The notes under the pieces were generated by a model. It made no database searches. It was not told where the DNA came from and saw only the letters and a list, made by a program, of their open reading frames with translations. Source: Nitrospirota bacterium (GTDB lineage: Bacteria; Nitrospirota; Nitrospiria; Nitrospirales; Nitrospiraceae). From it: a stretch of DNA of 64,000 bases. Of this stretch, positions 48,476 to 55,378 are shown one piece after another. How positions within the stretch are numbered: position 1 is the stretch's first letter; each line of letters starts with the position of its first letter. The position numbers were made by a program, and so were the translations under genes. Location of the stretch: NCBI GenBank assembly GCA_016219645.1, contig JACRLR010000021.1, positions 62,001-126,000 on the forward strand. The letters run 5' to 3'.

Positions 48476-48620
48476 GGCAACGCCTTCTGAACCACTGCCG
48501 TGACCGGTTTTCACCTTGACTCCCTCTGAGACATCATGGTATTCGCTCAATCTGGTGACGGATTTCAGATATAGAGGGACTCTTCGCCCTGCGGATTGCC
48601 ACGACAAACGAGGTCCGGGG

Positions 48621-49457
48621 ATGCGCGATTCCTTTCCCAGCAGGCTTCAGCGACGTGCCATCGAGGCCCTCTGCGCCGGGGTGGCCGTCGCCACTCTCTG
48701 CGGTCCCATCTATGCCGAGGAACCAGTTGGGCCAGCCGAAACGGCTTCACCCCAAGCAATTGAATCTCTTGCTCAGTCTCCTGCTGCGACTGCCCAGGCC
48801 CCGGTCGATCCCTTTATAAAATTACAAGGATCTGTGTGGCGGACCAAGGCAGGTATCGTCTTTCTCAAGACCCCGATAGGATTATTAACGCTCACTTCCA
48901 AGACAACTCTGAAGGATCTCAAAGCCTCGCAAGAAGTACGTTTTTGGCTGCACGACCGCCATTGCATCGTTGAGATCAGAAAGAGGGCCGACGGATCGTT
49001 GGTCCACCGCTATCTCAGTGGGCCGATGCCGTCCGGGGCTGATGTCTCGAAAACGTTACGTTGGTGGGGGCCTGACGGTGACCAGACTGTCCATGTCGGC
49101 ACGCAAGAGGAACGCCTTGCTGATTATCGCGAGGGAGATCCGCTGACCATAGAAGTCGATGAAACCAATACGATCAGCGGAGTGCACGACCTACAATTTG
49201 ATCTTCAAGTCAGTCAGGCTCCAGAGGCCAGCGCCGACGTATCTCTCCTCCTCTCGGGAACCGTGTCCAAGCTCAAATCCAACTTCGTCTTTGTCCGCAC
49301 ACCTATCGGCCTCGTCATGCTTAATTCGAAGATCGGGGTTCCTCATGTGAAGGTGGGACAGCCCTTGACGGTGCACATTGACCGCGAGCAGGTGACAGTC
49401 ACGGTTCGATCCCCTGAGACCGCGACCCCCAATCGCGGTGCCTCACTGACCCACTAA
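48621..49457 (+). CDS. Exported protein with two similar beta modules
   Basis: The product (278 residues from ATG 48621) has a signal peptide (RRAIEALCAGVAVATLCG, cut near IYAEEP). Two segments are alike: LQGSVWRTKAGIVFLKTPIG followed by LLTLTSKTTL near residues 65-95, and LSGTVSKLKSNFVFVRTPIG followed by LVMLNSKIGV near residues 210-240. Each continues with a KxxxxVxxWxxDxxxxVxIR-like strand pattern. The repeated unit looks like a small beta-barrel (OB-like) module found twice. Function unknown. The start is chosen because GGTCCGGGG precedes it and the signal peptide begins there. Confidence 0.7.
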   Translation: MRDSFPSRLQRRAIEALCAGVAVATLCGPIYAEEPVGPAETASPQAIESLAQSPAATAQAPVDPFIKLQGSVWRTKAGIVFLKTPIGLLTLTSKTTLKDLKASQEVRFWLHDRHCIVEIRKRADGSLVHRYLSGPMPSGADVSKTLRWWGPDGDQTVHVGTQEERLADYREGDPLTIEVDETNTISGVHDLQFDLQVSQAPEASADVSLLLSGTVSKLKSNFVFVRTPIGLVMLNSKIGVPHVKVGQPLTVHIDREQVTVTVRSPETATPNRGASLTH

Positions 49458-49522: not shown

Positions 49523-49551
49523 TTGACAGGGATCATTTCGCTCCCTAGACT
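49523..49551 (+). promoter_or_regulatory. Near-consensus promoter of the ECF sigma operon
   Basis: TTGACA (49523-49528), a 17-base spacer and TAGACT (49546-49551). The start codon is at 49563, only 11 bases after the -10, so transcription would begin about 5 bases before the ATG. No Shine-Dalgarno is present, so the transcript is nearly leaderless. Confidence 0.7.
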
Positions 49552-49562
49552 TCGTCCCAGCC

Positions 49563-50183
49563 ATGTGCGCAGCTGCTTCAAAAAAGCCTCCCCAACATCC
49601 AGTCAGGCAAGGGCTCGAAGGATTTGATAGCCTGTATCGAGACCATGTTGATCTGATTTATCGGTACGCACACCGCCTGTGCGGCGAGACAGAGTCGGCA
49701 AAGGATCTCGTTCAAGAGACCTTTCTCAATGCCTATCAGGGGCTGAAAGATTTTCGAGGCGAGGCGAAGGTCTCCACCTGGCTCTACACCATCGCCTCGC
49801 GGGCCTGCATTCGGATGCGGCGCAAGCGTAAAGGAGAGCCGGAGCATGAGCTGTCGCTTGAAGAGTTCGTGCCTACTTCAGAGGGAGAGTTTCGTCTCCA
49901 GATTCCAATGAGCGGGCTCAGTCCCGAAGAAGCACTCCAGAACAAGGAACTCCGGGAGGCCCTCGACCAGGCGATCGACAAACTGCCGAAAAAATATCGC
50001 ATGGCTCTGGTGCTCCGCGACATGGAAGGATTGAGCGCCAAGGAAGTGGGGACCATCATGGGCGTGAATGAGCGCGCCGTAAAGTCGAGACTGCATCGAG
50101 CACGCTTGTTTGTGCGGCGAGAGCTTAGCGCCCGCGGCATTACCGAGCACGGTAATCAGAGATCGGGAGGCTTGCGCTCATGA
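49563..50183 (+). CDS. ECF sigma factor (RpoE-like)
   Basis: The 206-residue protein is an extracytoplasmic-function sigma factor. Region 2 covers FDSLYRDHVDLIYRYAHRLC, DLVQETFLNAYQGLKDFRGE and VSTWLYTIASRACIRMRRKR, and region 4 covers ALDQAIDKLPKKYRMALVLR, DMEGLSAKEVGTIMGVNERA and VKSRLHRARLFVRREL. Both regions are intact. The linker carries an acidic stretch. Its stop overlaps the start of a zinc-finger anti-sigma gene by four bases and that gene overlaps a cupredoxin gene, so the three make a compact operon. The target regulon cannot be read from the sequence. Confidence 0.93.
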   Translation: MCAAASKKPPQHPVRQGLEGFDSLYRDHVDLIYRYAHRLCGETESAKDLVQETFLNAYQGLKDFRGEAKVSTWLYTIASRACIRMRRKRKGEPEHELSLEEFVPTSEGEFRLQIPMSGLSPEEALQNKELREALDQAIDKLPKKYRMALVLRDMEGLSAKEVGTIMGVNERAVKSRLHRARLFVRRELSARGITEHGNQRSGGLRS

Positions 50184-50485
50184 ACAAGAAAAAGACGGTG
50201 ACGCCAAAGAAACGTTCCAGGTCCTTATCTCACCATCATACGCATAGCGAAGGCCGGTGCGTGGATCTTCTCCGGCAGTTGTCTGCCTATATCGACGACG
50301 AACTTCCATCCGACATTTGCGGGGAGATACGCCGGCATCTGGGGGCCTGTCCGAATTGCGAAGTTTTTATCGCGTCCCTCCAGCAGACCGTCACACTCTG
50401 TCGACATCGGTCAGCCCCGGAGTTGACGTCAGTTGACCGGATGAAGATGCGTCGCGCGATCCTCACCGCGGCTAATGCACGGTGA
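50180..50485 (+). CDS. Zinc-finger anti-sigma factor
   Basis: The 101-residue product is a soluble zf-HC2 anti-sigma factor. The zinc-binding motif is CVDLLRQLSAYIDDELPSDI followed by CGEIRRHLGACPNCEVF: the HxxxCxxC pattern (His in RRHLGACPNC) is intact. There is no membrane helix, unlike many ECF anti-sigma factors, so it senses cytosolic signals or is regulated by a partner. It is translated from an ATGA overlap with the sigma gene, and its stop overlaps the cupredoxin GTG. Confidence 0.92.
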   Translation: MNKKKTVTPKKRSRSLSHHHTHSEGRCVDLLRQLSAYIDDELPSDICGEIRRHLGACPNCEVFIASLQQTVTLCRHRSAPELTSVDRMKMRRAILTAANAR

Positions 50486-50883
50486 AAGGAGCGTTCGGGC
50501 TCATATGTCTGGTTTGGATGCTGGCCATTCCAATCACTGCGCTTTCAGCCGAGGCCGAGATGGAATCGGTCACCGTGGAGATCCGCTCGCGGGTGTTCAT
50601 CCCACAACAGATCCACTTACATCATAGTCGCAAGACCCTGCTCCGGTTCCGCAACTACGACACAGAACTCCATACCGTAGTAGCCAAGGAGCTCTTCCTC
50701 AGTGACGACCTCACCCTGAGCGGTAACGGAGCCCCAGAGTTCGGCCCGGAAGGGCTCAAGAAAGTGATCATCCCGCCTGATGGCCTGATTGAATTTCAGT
50801 TTACGCCGGCACGTATTGGAACTCTCTCCTACCTGTGCGACATGCCGGGTCATAACATGCAGGCCACAATCGTAGTTGAATGA
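50482..50883 (+). CDS. Exported cupredoxin-domain protein
   Basis: The 133-residue product begins with a signal peptide (LICLVWMLAIPITALSAEAE). The mature part is a single cupredoxin fold with copper ligands: H64 in TELHTVV, C119 in YLCDMPGH, H124 and M126. This is the type 1 copper pattern C-x4-H-x-M. The start GTG overlaps the anti-sigma stop (GTGA). A copper protein governed by its own ECF sigma/anti-sigma pair suggests that the switch responds to copper, redox or periplasmic stress, but that is inference. Confidence 0.85.
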   Translation: MKGAFGLICLVWMLAIPITALSAEAEMESVTVEIRSRVFIPQQIHLHHSRKTLLRFRNYDTELHTVVAKELFLSDDLTLSGNGAPEFGPEGLKKVIIPPDGLIEFQFTPARIGTLSYLCDMPGHNMQATIVVE

Positions 50884-51087
50884 GAAAGAGAGGGGTCGCC
50901 TTCATCGTACCTCGTCGTTCGTAGGCGGAAGATTTCCTAGCTCGCGAGATACGCCTCACGATTCACGCTTCACGGGTGTCGAGTGCGATGCATGGGAACG
51001 GGCGCACCCATGGCCTCTTCCAGGTATTCAAAGCAGCGTGATACAGTATCGCGTTCTTCTCGTCATTTTAGTAGGAGTTTGTCTGAC

Positions 51088-52800
51088 ATGCCGTGCTTGC
51101 ATACCTTCCAACGTGACTGGTTCAGTATCCTGTTCCTCGCCGGAATTCTATCGATGGTTACTGCAACGACCTTGATCGACACGTCATCGGCATCGGCCGC
51201 CACCAAGAAGTCTAAGCAGGTCGTCACCTCAGCTGAAGCGACTGCGTTGCGTTATGCAGAAGCGATGGGAGCGGGAAATAAGGTTGTCGTCGGCCAGCTC
51301 GACTTTGCCTGCCAATATCCCTTTGTCACTACCTCCCCGCATGGCATCAAGACCTATCCGTCAGACGCTGACTCGATGTATGACTCCTGCTGGCAGGGCC
51401 TGAAAGGCGTACACGCCCCCACACTGGCCCGAAGCGATGTCGGTATGGAGGTTGTGTGGCCCAGTAGTGGCGAATTGGTCTTTTTCAGCGAAGACGTGAG
51501 TAGCTATCCCGCATCAGCCTTCGTAGCAGACTCGCTGGGTCTTAAGCCACCTGGAACTGGATTCCATGTTCGCATTGTCGGAAGTAAGCCGCTTCCCTCT
51601 GCTTCATTCCGTCTTCGACCGAATGGCCCGATCGTATCGGTGCCGACGACCTTGGTGAAATTGTCCATCAGTTACCAGGATCCCCTCACGGCTCCGTTGA
51701 CCTATGCTGCCGGCTCGGTCAAATGGACCAATACGATTAAGCGGACCAGGCGTGCGCTGAAAGAGATCACCATCCAGTGGGTTGTCCTCTCCGGGCTCAA
51801 GAAACACGGCTTCGCGGGTGACAGGGCGGTCGTAAACCTTCCCGTCACCAGCGGGGCATTGTTCGGCAGTGGCGACCGGGAGAAGATCCCGTTTGTGACG
51901 GAAACCAGTCGTGCCCTCTCCGACTCACTGGTTTGGTGGGGGCCGACCGACGTCCCGGGTATCTTGACCGCCGGAGTCGCTCACGCCGCCACCCTTCCCG
52001 AACTGCGTGACCAAGTGGCCCTATTGAATCGTGTGCTCATCATTGACCCGAATCAGGCCGACGCCCTCACAGTATTGAGCCGACACCTCTATGCTGTCGT
52101 TCTGCGCGAGGCCATTCCGTTTCACAAGCTCACGGTGGGCGATCCAGCGCTTGCGTTGGTTGTGAACGAGCATTTTTGGAATATCTATGCCCAATCAGTG
52201 CGCATGGACCTCTCCTTGGGGATGGAGATGGGAGGATTCGACAAACCGACGACCGCCGACTACCTGTACCGTATGCTCTCGGCCATGAAGACCTTGGCTG
52301 CAGTACGGCCGGAACGACTCGATAACCGGTTTCAGTTAGGTGTAGCCTATCGCTGGAACAACGATCAAACAGCCTCGATCGAGACCCATGAGTCTTTGGT
52401 CAAGGCCATCCCTGTGGAGCAAAGAGCCGGCAGAGCTGAAGCGCTACTCCAGCTAGCCTGGTCCCGCATCAGCAAAGTGGCCTGGAACCGTATTCTCGAC
52501 GACCCGGACATTCGGGTTGCCTATCAGGATGCCGACGAGGCGCTCGCGCTCGCCGACCTGCCGCTCGATAAGTTTTTGGCCGAATACAGCAAAGCCTACA
52601 GCTTGCTCTTCACTCCGGACCGGGACAATCGGGCGCTTCTGGAGCGATTGACAGAAGCCAAACGTTGGTTTGCTGAAGTTCCCGGGCAGACTCCGGAGAT
52701 CTGGCAATTCTTCATCGGGGCGGAGTCATTGAAGGCGGTGCTGGATGCAGATCCCATCTTCCGTCCGTTGCTGGCACAGGCAGAAGAAAAGAAAGGGTGA
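51088..52800 (+). CDS. Exported protein of unknown function, helical C-terminus
   Basis: From ATG 51088 the product has 570 residues. It has a signal-like segment (WFSILFLAGILSMVTATTLI) followed by ASAATKKSKQ. The N-terminal 270 residues are beta-rich with SWxx patterns and ARSDVGMEVVWPSSGELVFF. The C-terminal 280 residues are helical and TPR-like: ELRDQVALLNRVLIIDPNQA, DALTVLSRHLYAVVLREAIP, NRFQLGVAYRWNNDQTASIE, AGRAEALLQLAWSRISKVAW. No catalytic residues were recognised. TAGGAG lies 12 bases before the ATG. It follows the cupredoxin operon but with a 200-base gap. Confidence 0.7.
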   Translation: MPCLHTFQRDWFSILFLAGILSMVTATTLIDTSSASAATKKSKQVVTSAEATALRYAEAMGAGNKVVVGQLDFACQYPFVTTSPHGIKTYPSDADSMYDSCWQGLKGVHAPTLARSDVGMEVVWPSSGELVFFSEDVSSYPASAFVADSLGLKPPGTGFHVRIVGSKPLPSASFRLRPNGPIVSVPTTLVKLSISYQDPLTAPLTYAAGSVKWTNTIKRTRRALKEITIQWVVLSGLKKHGFAGDRAVVNLPVTSGALFGSGDREKIPFVTETSRALSDSLVWWGPTDVPGILTAGVAHAATLPELRDQVALLNRVLIIDPNQADALTVLSRHLYAVVLREAIPFHKLTVGDPALALVVNEHFWNIYAQSVRMDLSLGMEMGGFDKPTTADYLYRMLSAMKTLAAVRPERLDNRFQLGVAYRWNNDQTASIETHESLVKAIPVEQRAGRAEALLQLAWSRISKVAWNRILDDPDIRVAYQDADEALALADLPLDKFLAEYSKAYSLLFTPDRDNRALLERLTEAKRWFAEVPGQTPEIWQFFIGAESLKAVLDADPIFRPLLAQAEEKKG

Positions 52801-54268: not shown

Positions 54269-55378
54269 ATGCGTATCTTCTCAATCCTAATCATTCTTGT
54301 TACACTCTTTTCCCTTGCTGGGCATGTACCTGCTTCCCCGTTGATCGAAATTTCGAAAGAAGACTTGCAGAAACTGCATACACAGGCAGCGCAGGGCAAC
54401 GTGAGGGCACAGACCGCGCTCGGGGAGTTCTATGACATTGGGGACTATGTCCCACAGAATTATGCCACGGCACGGGGGTGGTACGAGAAGGCGGCAGCCC
54501 AGGGGGACAAGGAGGCGCAGTACAACCTTGGGCTGCTGTATGCCGAAGGGCGTGGTGTGCCACAAGATTATACGACGGCACGGCAGTGGTGGGAAAAATC
54601 CGCTGTCCAAGGCACCGCGCAGGCGCAGTACAATCTCGGTATCCTCTATGATAAGGGGCGGAGTGTGCCGCAGGACTATCCGGTAGCACGTGAGTGGTAC
54701 CAGAAAGCCGCTGTTCAGGGACTTGCGGAGGCGCAATCCAATCTCGGGCTGATGTATCAAAACGGAAGCGGCGTCCCACAGGACTATACTCAAGCGCGGC
54801 TATGGTTCGAAAAATCAGCAGCACAGGGGTTTGCAACTGCGCAGGTCAATCTTGGCGGTCTCTATGCGACCGGACTGGGCGTCCCGCAGGACTATACAGT
54901 GGCACGTGCGTGGTATGAGAAAGCCGCTGACCATGGCGATGCGAATGCGCAGTTCAACCTTGGAGTTCTGTATGCCAAGGGACGGGGTGTCCCACAGGAC
55001 TACACTCAAGCGCGGCTATGGTACGAAAGATCGGCAGCGCAGGGGAATGCAAATGCGCAAATCAATCTCAGCGCTCTCTATGCGACCGGACAGGGCGTCC
55101 CGCAGGACTATGCGAAAGCACGACAGTGGCTTGAACAGGCGGTTGCCCAGGGGAACGCGGTTGCGCAGAACAACCTCGGTTATCTTTACGTCGATGGCAA
55201 GGGCGTTCCGAATATGTGGTTCAACCTCTCGGTCGAGCAATATCTAAGACAGAGCAGAAAGAACATGGAGACAGCACAACGTCGAGATGCCATTGCGAAG
55301 CAGCTCACTCCCGCACAGATCGCCGAAGCCCAGCGACTCGCGCAACAGTGTCAAGCACAGCAGTTCAAGGGCTGCTGA
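54269..55378 (+). CDS. Exported SEL1-like repeat protein
   Basis: The 369-residue product starts with a signal peptide (MRIFSILIILVTLFSLAG, cut near PASPL). Seven complete SEL1/TPR-like units of 36 residues follow, each built as GxAxAQxNLGxLYAxGxGVP then QDYxxARxWYExAAxQ; an eighth is shortened (GVPNMWFNLS) by loss of about six residues and leads into a C-terminal helix with RDAIAKQLTPAQIAEAQRLA. SEL1 repeats form curved helical scaffolds for protein contacts. The repeat DNA is nearly regular with a 108-base period. A partner cannot be named. The ATG has no ribosome site and lies next to a -10 element. Confidence 0.9.
   Translation: MRIFSILIILVTLFSLAGHVPASPLIEISKEDLQKLHTQAAQGNVRAQTALGEFYDIGDYVPQNYATARGWYEKAAAQGDKEAQYNLGLLYAEGRGVPQDYTTARQWWEKSAVQGTAQAQYNLGILYDKGRSVPQDYPVAREWYQKAAVQGLAEAQSNLGLMYQNGSGVPQDYTQARLWFEKSAAQGFATAQVNLGGLYATGLGVPQDYTVARAWYEKAADHGDANAQFNLGVLYAKGRGVPQDYTQARLWYERSAAQGNANAQINLSALYATGQGVPQDYAKARQWLEQAVAQGNAVAQNNLGYLYVDGKGVPNMWFNLSVEQYLRQSRKNMETAQRRDAIAKQLTPAQIAEAQRLAQQCQAQQFKGC

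Follow-up and report, generated by a model that had tools for sequence, protein, structure and literature searches.

Does a cupredoxin gene that overlaps the genes of an ECF-type sigma factor and its anti-sigma factor mark a dedicated copper switch, or does the sigma pair answer to something else? The question is raised by three consecutive genes in the window, the stretch of 64,000 nucleotides that was analysed (contig JACRLR010000021.1, positions 62,001 to 126,000), whose host genome is a Nitrospiraceae MAG of 3.65 Mb in 71 contigs. The original prediction read the trio as a compact copper-protein switch controlled by copper or by thiol-redox state. On present evidence the locus is real and conserved, and it is not a copper-protein switch. 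The features on which the argument turns, all on the forward strand of the window, are as follows.

48516 to 49457, forward strand: "up", a conserved exported protein and the upstream neighbour of the trio, recognised from the family loci, with no Pfam match
49523 to 49551, forward strand: promoter of the sigma gene, TTGACA-17-TAGACT, agreeing with the sigma-70 consensus at 10 of 12 positions
49563 to 50183, forward strand: ECF-type sigma factor of 206 aa (Pfam Sigma70_r2 and r4_2)
50180 to 50485, forward strand: soluble zinc-type anti-sigma factor of 101 aa (zf-HC2), with C27, C47, H53, C57, C60 and C74 and a His-rich N-terminus
50482 to 50883, forward strand: exported cupredoxin of 133 aa with a GTG start (Cupredoxin_1), predicted copper ligands H64, C119, H124 and M126
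51039 to 51047, forward strand: TGATACAGT, an extended -10-like box read from the window sequence, candidate promoter of the 570-aa protein gene
51088 to 52800, forward strand: conserved exported protein of 570 aa to the right of slot 3, located by tblastn in the family loci

The three genes and their products

The arrangement itself had been described correctly. Neighbouring genes of the trio overlap by four bases each, with ATGA common to the sigma and anti-sigma genes and GTGA common to the anti-sigma and cupredoxin genes, the coordinates agree, and the near-consensus promoter is present ahead of the first gene. The sigma factor scores above the Pfam cut-offs for both Sigma70_r2 and r4_2, which places it among the ECF sigma factors, and reaches 116 bits against a cut-off of 42.9 for the sigma70-ECF superfamily of NCBIfam; no NCBIfam equivalog cut-off is reached among the best 25 matches listed.

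The anti-sigma factor matches zf-HC2 at 31.4 bits against a Pfam cut-off of 22.2. Its full motif is C27...H53xxxC57xxC60, plus two further invariant cysteines at C47 and C74. All 133 family orthologues keep C47, H53, C57, C60 and C74, and 132, all but one truncated row, keep C27; at least two histidines stand within the 14 residues ahead of C27 in 122 of these 133 proteins. The hydropathy of 19-residue windows peaks below 1.6 in every one of them, so that a membrane helix is absent, as had been claimed together with the HxxxCxxC site. The Hx3Cx2C signature beside an ECF gene identifies the protein as a class I zinc-type anti-sigma factor, with zinc binding and inhibition as predicted properties. 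According to PMC7406223, zinc motifs are enriched among soluble anti-sigma factors of class I, which are tied to redox sensing inside the cell. More distant pairs from other families, read by eye, also have a cysteine where C47 stands and none where C74 stands, thus C74 looks specific to the Nitrospiraceae.

The third product is an exported type 1 copper protein, as originally proposed. The numbering of its four ligands was right, and the four, together with M121, are conserved in every one of 45 cupredoxins. It matches Cupredoxin_1 at 46.9 bits (Pfam cut-off 27), and with a Cys, two His and a Met on a modelled cupredoxin fold it belongs with the type 1 copper cupredoxins, copper binding being a prediction. 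The fold comes from the one usable model of five (pLDDT 73, medium confidence; the other four ranged from 57 to 34), which matches PDB cupredoxins, namely 4hcf (Cupredoxin_1) and auracyanin, at about 19% identity. The profile match to auracyanin A has an E-value of 2.7e-5, and the likeness to the auracyanin and Cupredoxin_1 blue copper proteins thus takes in the Cys, His, His and Met ligands as well as profile and fold. Azurin has the spacing C-x4-H-x3-M, and the C-x4-H-x-M of the window cupredoxin is shorter. Signal peptides were assessed within the window, where the N-terminus of the cupredoxin looks to be of the Sec type by eye and by hydropathy. Some cupredoxins of the window's genus, g1 (loci L079, L080, L175, L073, L072 and L071), carry an insert of 11-63 residues at the junction between signal peptide and domain, and the four-base overlap is kept in these.

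Contents and history of the slot across the Nitrospiraceae

The family survey covered 147 Nitrospiraceae genomes. An anti-sigma orthologue was matched in 134 of these, and with G094 left out of the locus set (its match, at E 3.4e-6, was unlike the others) 133 usable loci remained. For G069 the slot was taken from a second contig (an anti-sigma fragment and a cytochrome on C18), and G026, where one contig carries fragments of cupredoxin and cytochrome but an anti-sigma match is lacking, lies outside the 133. The cupredoxin query matched 61 of the 147 genomes at E 0.001, a number that includes weaker paralogues.

The sigma pair is near-universal in the family, and the original prediction depended on the cupredoxin gene staying beside it in relatives. 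This did not hold up: the cupredoxin adjoins the pair in 44 of the 133 loci, while 37 have a cytochrome c instead and 52 have neither. Read from the DNA at all 133 loci, the slot, by which we mean the interval between the anti-sigma gene and the 570-aa protein gene, contains the cupredoxin together with a mono-haem cytochrome c in 17 cases and the cupredoxin only in 27. Where both are counted, they lie within 3 kb, some with another gene between; at the cupredoxin/cytochrome locus of G021 this is a gene for a bacterial PH-domain protein. The slot cytochrome is a class I mono-haem protein, with matches to Cytochrom_C and Cytochrome_CBB3 in 21 of 21 (Pfam), an invariant CxxCH and a best PDB match to 6h5l chain B (E 1.2e-27). 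What is seen at the locus is therefore a sigma pair beside a slot for small exported carriers, followed by a conserved exported protein. Because the slot can hold a copper protein or a haem protein, the two together, or none of them, the pair is, judging from gene content, probably not a dedicated copper switch, and given the 52 loci with neither, the carriers cannot be its sole purpose.

The form of the slot follows lineage. Most of g1 has the copper form, g18, g2 and g14 have the haem form, the deep genera have both, and most of g6 has neither. The ammonia monooxygenase (AMO) gene, which the window's genome also encodes, was found in 46 of the 147 genomes and is confined to g1 and g6. Where a g1 genome is AMO-positive and its locus usable, the cupredoxin is there in 11 of 11 cases. 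A simple rule tying AMO to the cupredoxin was considered and rejected, as g6 is mostly without a cupredoxin at the locus.

In some genomes the locus has the two carrier genes together and in others one of them has been lost (17, 27 and 37 of 133 for both, cupredoxin only and cytochrome only), a distribution like that of an exchange pair of the plastocyanin and cytochrome c6 kind. Parsimony gives 5 changes for the cupredoxin and 6 for the cytochrome on a tree of 121 of the 133 loci, from which rows without the sigma, anti-sigma or 570-aa protein gene, or with an internal stop, had been dropped; its root is a chosen outgroup, long branches are present, and a cytochrome relic in G087 was scored as absent. 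This relic, a C-terminal piece directly 3' of the cupredoxin (L075, 6806 to 6922), is a cytochrome loss caught in progress, and in the window's genus the cytochrome is mostly gone. The deep-branching genera carry the two carriers. A check for reciprocal loss gave a sign-test p of 1, with only 4-5 independent pairs. Fifty-five cytochromes reach 137 bits or more, one for each of the 54 loci that have the gene and one in G026, and no other match anywhere exceeds 121 bits; given this gap, the cytochrome was lost and not moved where it is absent.

Outside the family we examined the cupredoxin in 20 of the 27 genomes that had a match at E 1e-15. At 17 of these 20 loci it adjoins the 570-aa protein gene. 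At the other three (L278, L282 and L283, from a third family, f3) it overlaps or abuts the end of der, a GTPase gene, without a 570-aa protein gene; der was assigned by Pfam in L278 and by reading in L282 and L283. The sigma pair does not adjoin the cupredoxin at any of the 20, nor in G006, which lies inside the Nitrospiraceae and has der, cupredoxin and 570-aa protein gene without the pair. Related sigma pairs in other families are found without cupredoxin or 570-aa protein gene at 10 of 10 loci examined. In the simplest history the pair joined, or was lost from, an older cupredoxin locus downstream of der, a change whose direction we infer.

Operon coupling and promoters

An in-frame cupredoxin start that overlaps the anti-sigma stop by four bases is found at 23 of the 24 g1 cupredoxin loci against 3 of 20 elsewhere, and the cupredoxin gene of several deep genera stands 76-209 bases from the anti-sigma gene, with -10-like boxes of its own. 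The "one overlapping operon" of the original prediction is therefore mainly a trait of the window's genus. This is a caution for similar cases, as an operon recognised by four-base overlaps in a single genome can be late and lineage-specific.

For the window alone, promoter matches at two mismatches or fewer are not beyond chance, with 2 seen against 2.41 expected. Across the family, 120 of 130 loci have the Nitrospiraceae form of the motif, TTGAC[A/T]-16/18-TA[G/C]ACT, ahead of the sigma gene with 11 or more of 12 positions matched, compared to 2 of 2600 shuffles. The distance from the -10 box to the start codon is 8-14 bases in 117 of the 120 motif-bearing loci, and in the window the box ends 11 bases ahead of the sigma ATG. 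Given this short distance, a near-leaderless sigma messenger is probably a conserved feature, with the start point of transcription inferred from the box. Of the 10 loci without the promoter, 6 have the end of the "up" gene 7-17 bases ahead of the sigma gene, and in the remaining 4 an "up" gene was not found.

In its strict form the motif is all but confined to the locus: 49 of the 147 genomes have it, with roughly one site each. A search for a regulon by motif returned no recurrent second target across the 147 family genomes. A looser g1 motif also occurs upstream of unrelated genes and is conserved there between G000 and its relatives. These matches, at two mismatches or fewer, precede genes that we take from their translations to be gmhA-like, pilC-like, of the yidC region and outer-membrane-protein-like, as well as one for a small exported protein. 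The promoter of the sigma gene may therefore be an ordinary sigma-70 promoter. At L187 a promoter like that of the sigma locus, conserved in G000 and G060, precedes the gene of a small exported protein.

The 570-aa protein gene has a candidate promoter of its own. TGNTANAGT lies upstream of it in at least 81 of 127 loci (18 of 2540 shuffles), and also in G006; the 81 is a lower bound because a script assigned the gene starts outside the window, in some cases wrongly, for example that of the 570-aa protein gene in G000.

Possible roles of the sigma pair

The sigma pair reads as a thiol- or metal-sensing one that is linked to a locus for periplasmic electron carriers. The explanation we favor, to which we give slightly less than even confidence as a whole, is that the locus is vertically inherited within the Nitrospiraceae, and that the zinc anti-sigma factor releases the sigma factor upon thiol oxidation or metal exchange, with the sigma factor then driving the operon including the carrier. 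In its zinc-bound form the anti-sigma factor would keep the sigma factor bound in the cytoplasm, and oxidation of the thiols, or exchange of the metal, at the invariant cysteines would set it free. The freed sigma factor would transcribe its targets, including its own operon and hence the carrier, at least in the window's genus. The carrier would then be exported, given copper (or haem), and shuttle electrons in the periplasm. As no part of the anti-sigma factor reaches the periplasm, the signal would be sensed within the cell. The cupredoxin would be the output and not the sensor.

It may instead be that the pair and the carriers are unrelated neighbours, an alternative that we take seriously while leaning against it. 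The pair would have landed between der and an old locus of cupredoxin and 570-aa protein gene, the overlap would be later compaction, and the real targets would be elsewhere. Such a history fits the loci beyond the family, where cupredoxin and 570-aa protein gene do without the pair in 17 of 20 cases, the cupredoxin follows der in the other 3, and related pairs stand alone in all 10; G006 repeats the picture inside the family. In f3 the cupredoxin gene has a similar overlap or direct junction with the end of der, so the overlap by itself says little, and both the cupredoxin and the 570-aa protein gene have promoter candidates of their own. However, the cupredoxin remains by the pair in most genera that have both, and the overlap is exact and in frame at all but one of the 24 g1 loci. 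A copper switch proper, with the anti-sigma factor as copper sensor and cupredoxin made by way of the sigma factor when copper permits, we consider improbable, and it was rejected as the leading reading since the pair is kept at 89 of 133 loci without the cupredoxin. The His-rich N-terminus and the invariant cysteines could be metal sites, and the organism has a copper monooxygenase gene, but the identical cysteines are kept where the cupredoxin is missing, and AMO is confined to g1 and g6, yet g6 mostly lacks the cupredoxin at the locus. With the sensor unchanged where the copper protein is absent, the copper-specific half of the proposed control is left without support, while thiol-redox control fits the invariant cysteines. 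Thus the non-random operon, the soluble zinc-type anti-sigma factor and the exported type 1 copper protein of the original prediction stand, and the dedicated copper switch falls away.

Comparison with known systems bears on the same choice. CorE of Myxococcus xanthus is a copper-dependent ECF sigma factor, and a CorE-type protein is listed for Nitrospira defluvii (NIDE1902), both according to PMC3107203. As in the window, an ECF sigma factor is associated with copper proteins there; CorE, as that text has it, carries a C-terminal Cys-rich domain and has no linked anti-sigma factor, and the window sigma factor is the reverse, with an anti-sigma gene adjacent and no such domain. None of 131 sigma proteins of the family has a cysteine in its last 40 residues, and this lack of a CorE-type tail also counts against a copper switch. 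The nearest regulator in kind is SigR/RsrA of Streptomyces, with which the locus shares an adjacent sigma factor and soluble zf-HC2 anti-sigma factor and a Cys followed by HxxxCxxC, making a thiol switch plausible. We nevertheless hold it to be very improbable that the pair serves general disulfide stress in the way of SigR/RsrA, with the carrier as one of many targets. RsrA is the best NCBIfam match of the anti-sigma factor, which is soluble and has the Cys-His-Cys-Cys pattern with a weak RsrA alignment; but the 28.3 bits fall short of the TIGR03988 equivalog cut-off of 62.5, the PDB profile match to RsrA is weak and not significant (E 0.55), and no regulon, of thiol stress or otherwise, is seen by motif. 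The window protein also differs from RsrA in having the further invariant C47 and C74, and its pair in adjoining periplasmic electron carriers.

For the carriers of the slot, the nearest parallel, by analogy, is the exchange of plastocyanin and cytochrome c6 in cyanobacteria, where PetR/PetP, a CopY-type repressor with a protease, is in control (PMC10141476). In both cases a regulator is linked to a copper and a haem carrier, which in the Nitrospiraceae too may replace one another; in contrast to the cyanobacterial case, the Nitrospiraceae have a sigma/anti-sigma pair, and their exchange is seen across genomes, not within one cell. The locus might then be a non-photosynthetic counterpart of plastocyanin and cytochrome c6, with an ECF sigma factor and a thiol- or metal-responsive anti-sigma factor controlling a copper-or-haem carrier whose forms are fixed by lineage, a proposal that we regard as rather unlikely. 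No description of a sigma-pair/carrier locus in Nitrospiraceae was found in the mainly open-access literature searched. In nitrite- and ammonia-oxidising members of the Nitrospira group the periplasmic electron carriers are, to our knowledge, mostly unassigned. A slot that varies by lineage is a lead on how nitrifiers set copper versus iron use in electron transport, and the carrier exchange is open to comparison across cultured relatives.

Across the family the gene of the 570-aa protein constantly borders slot 3 on the right, and the proteins have a mean alignment identity of 61%. Of 21 members, none matches a Pfam family; the window protein has no PDB match, and its fold model was uninformative (pLDDT 35). 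Elsewhere in the window, positions 54269 to 55378 encode a Sel1-repeat protein with seven repeats.
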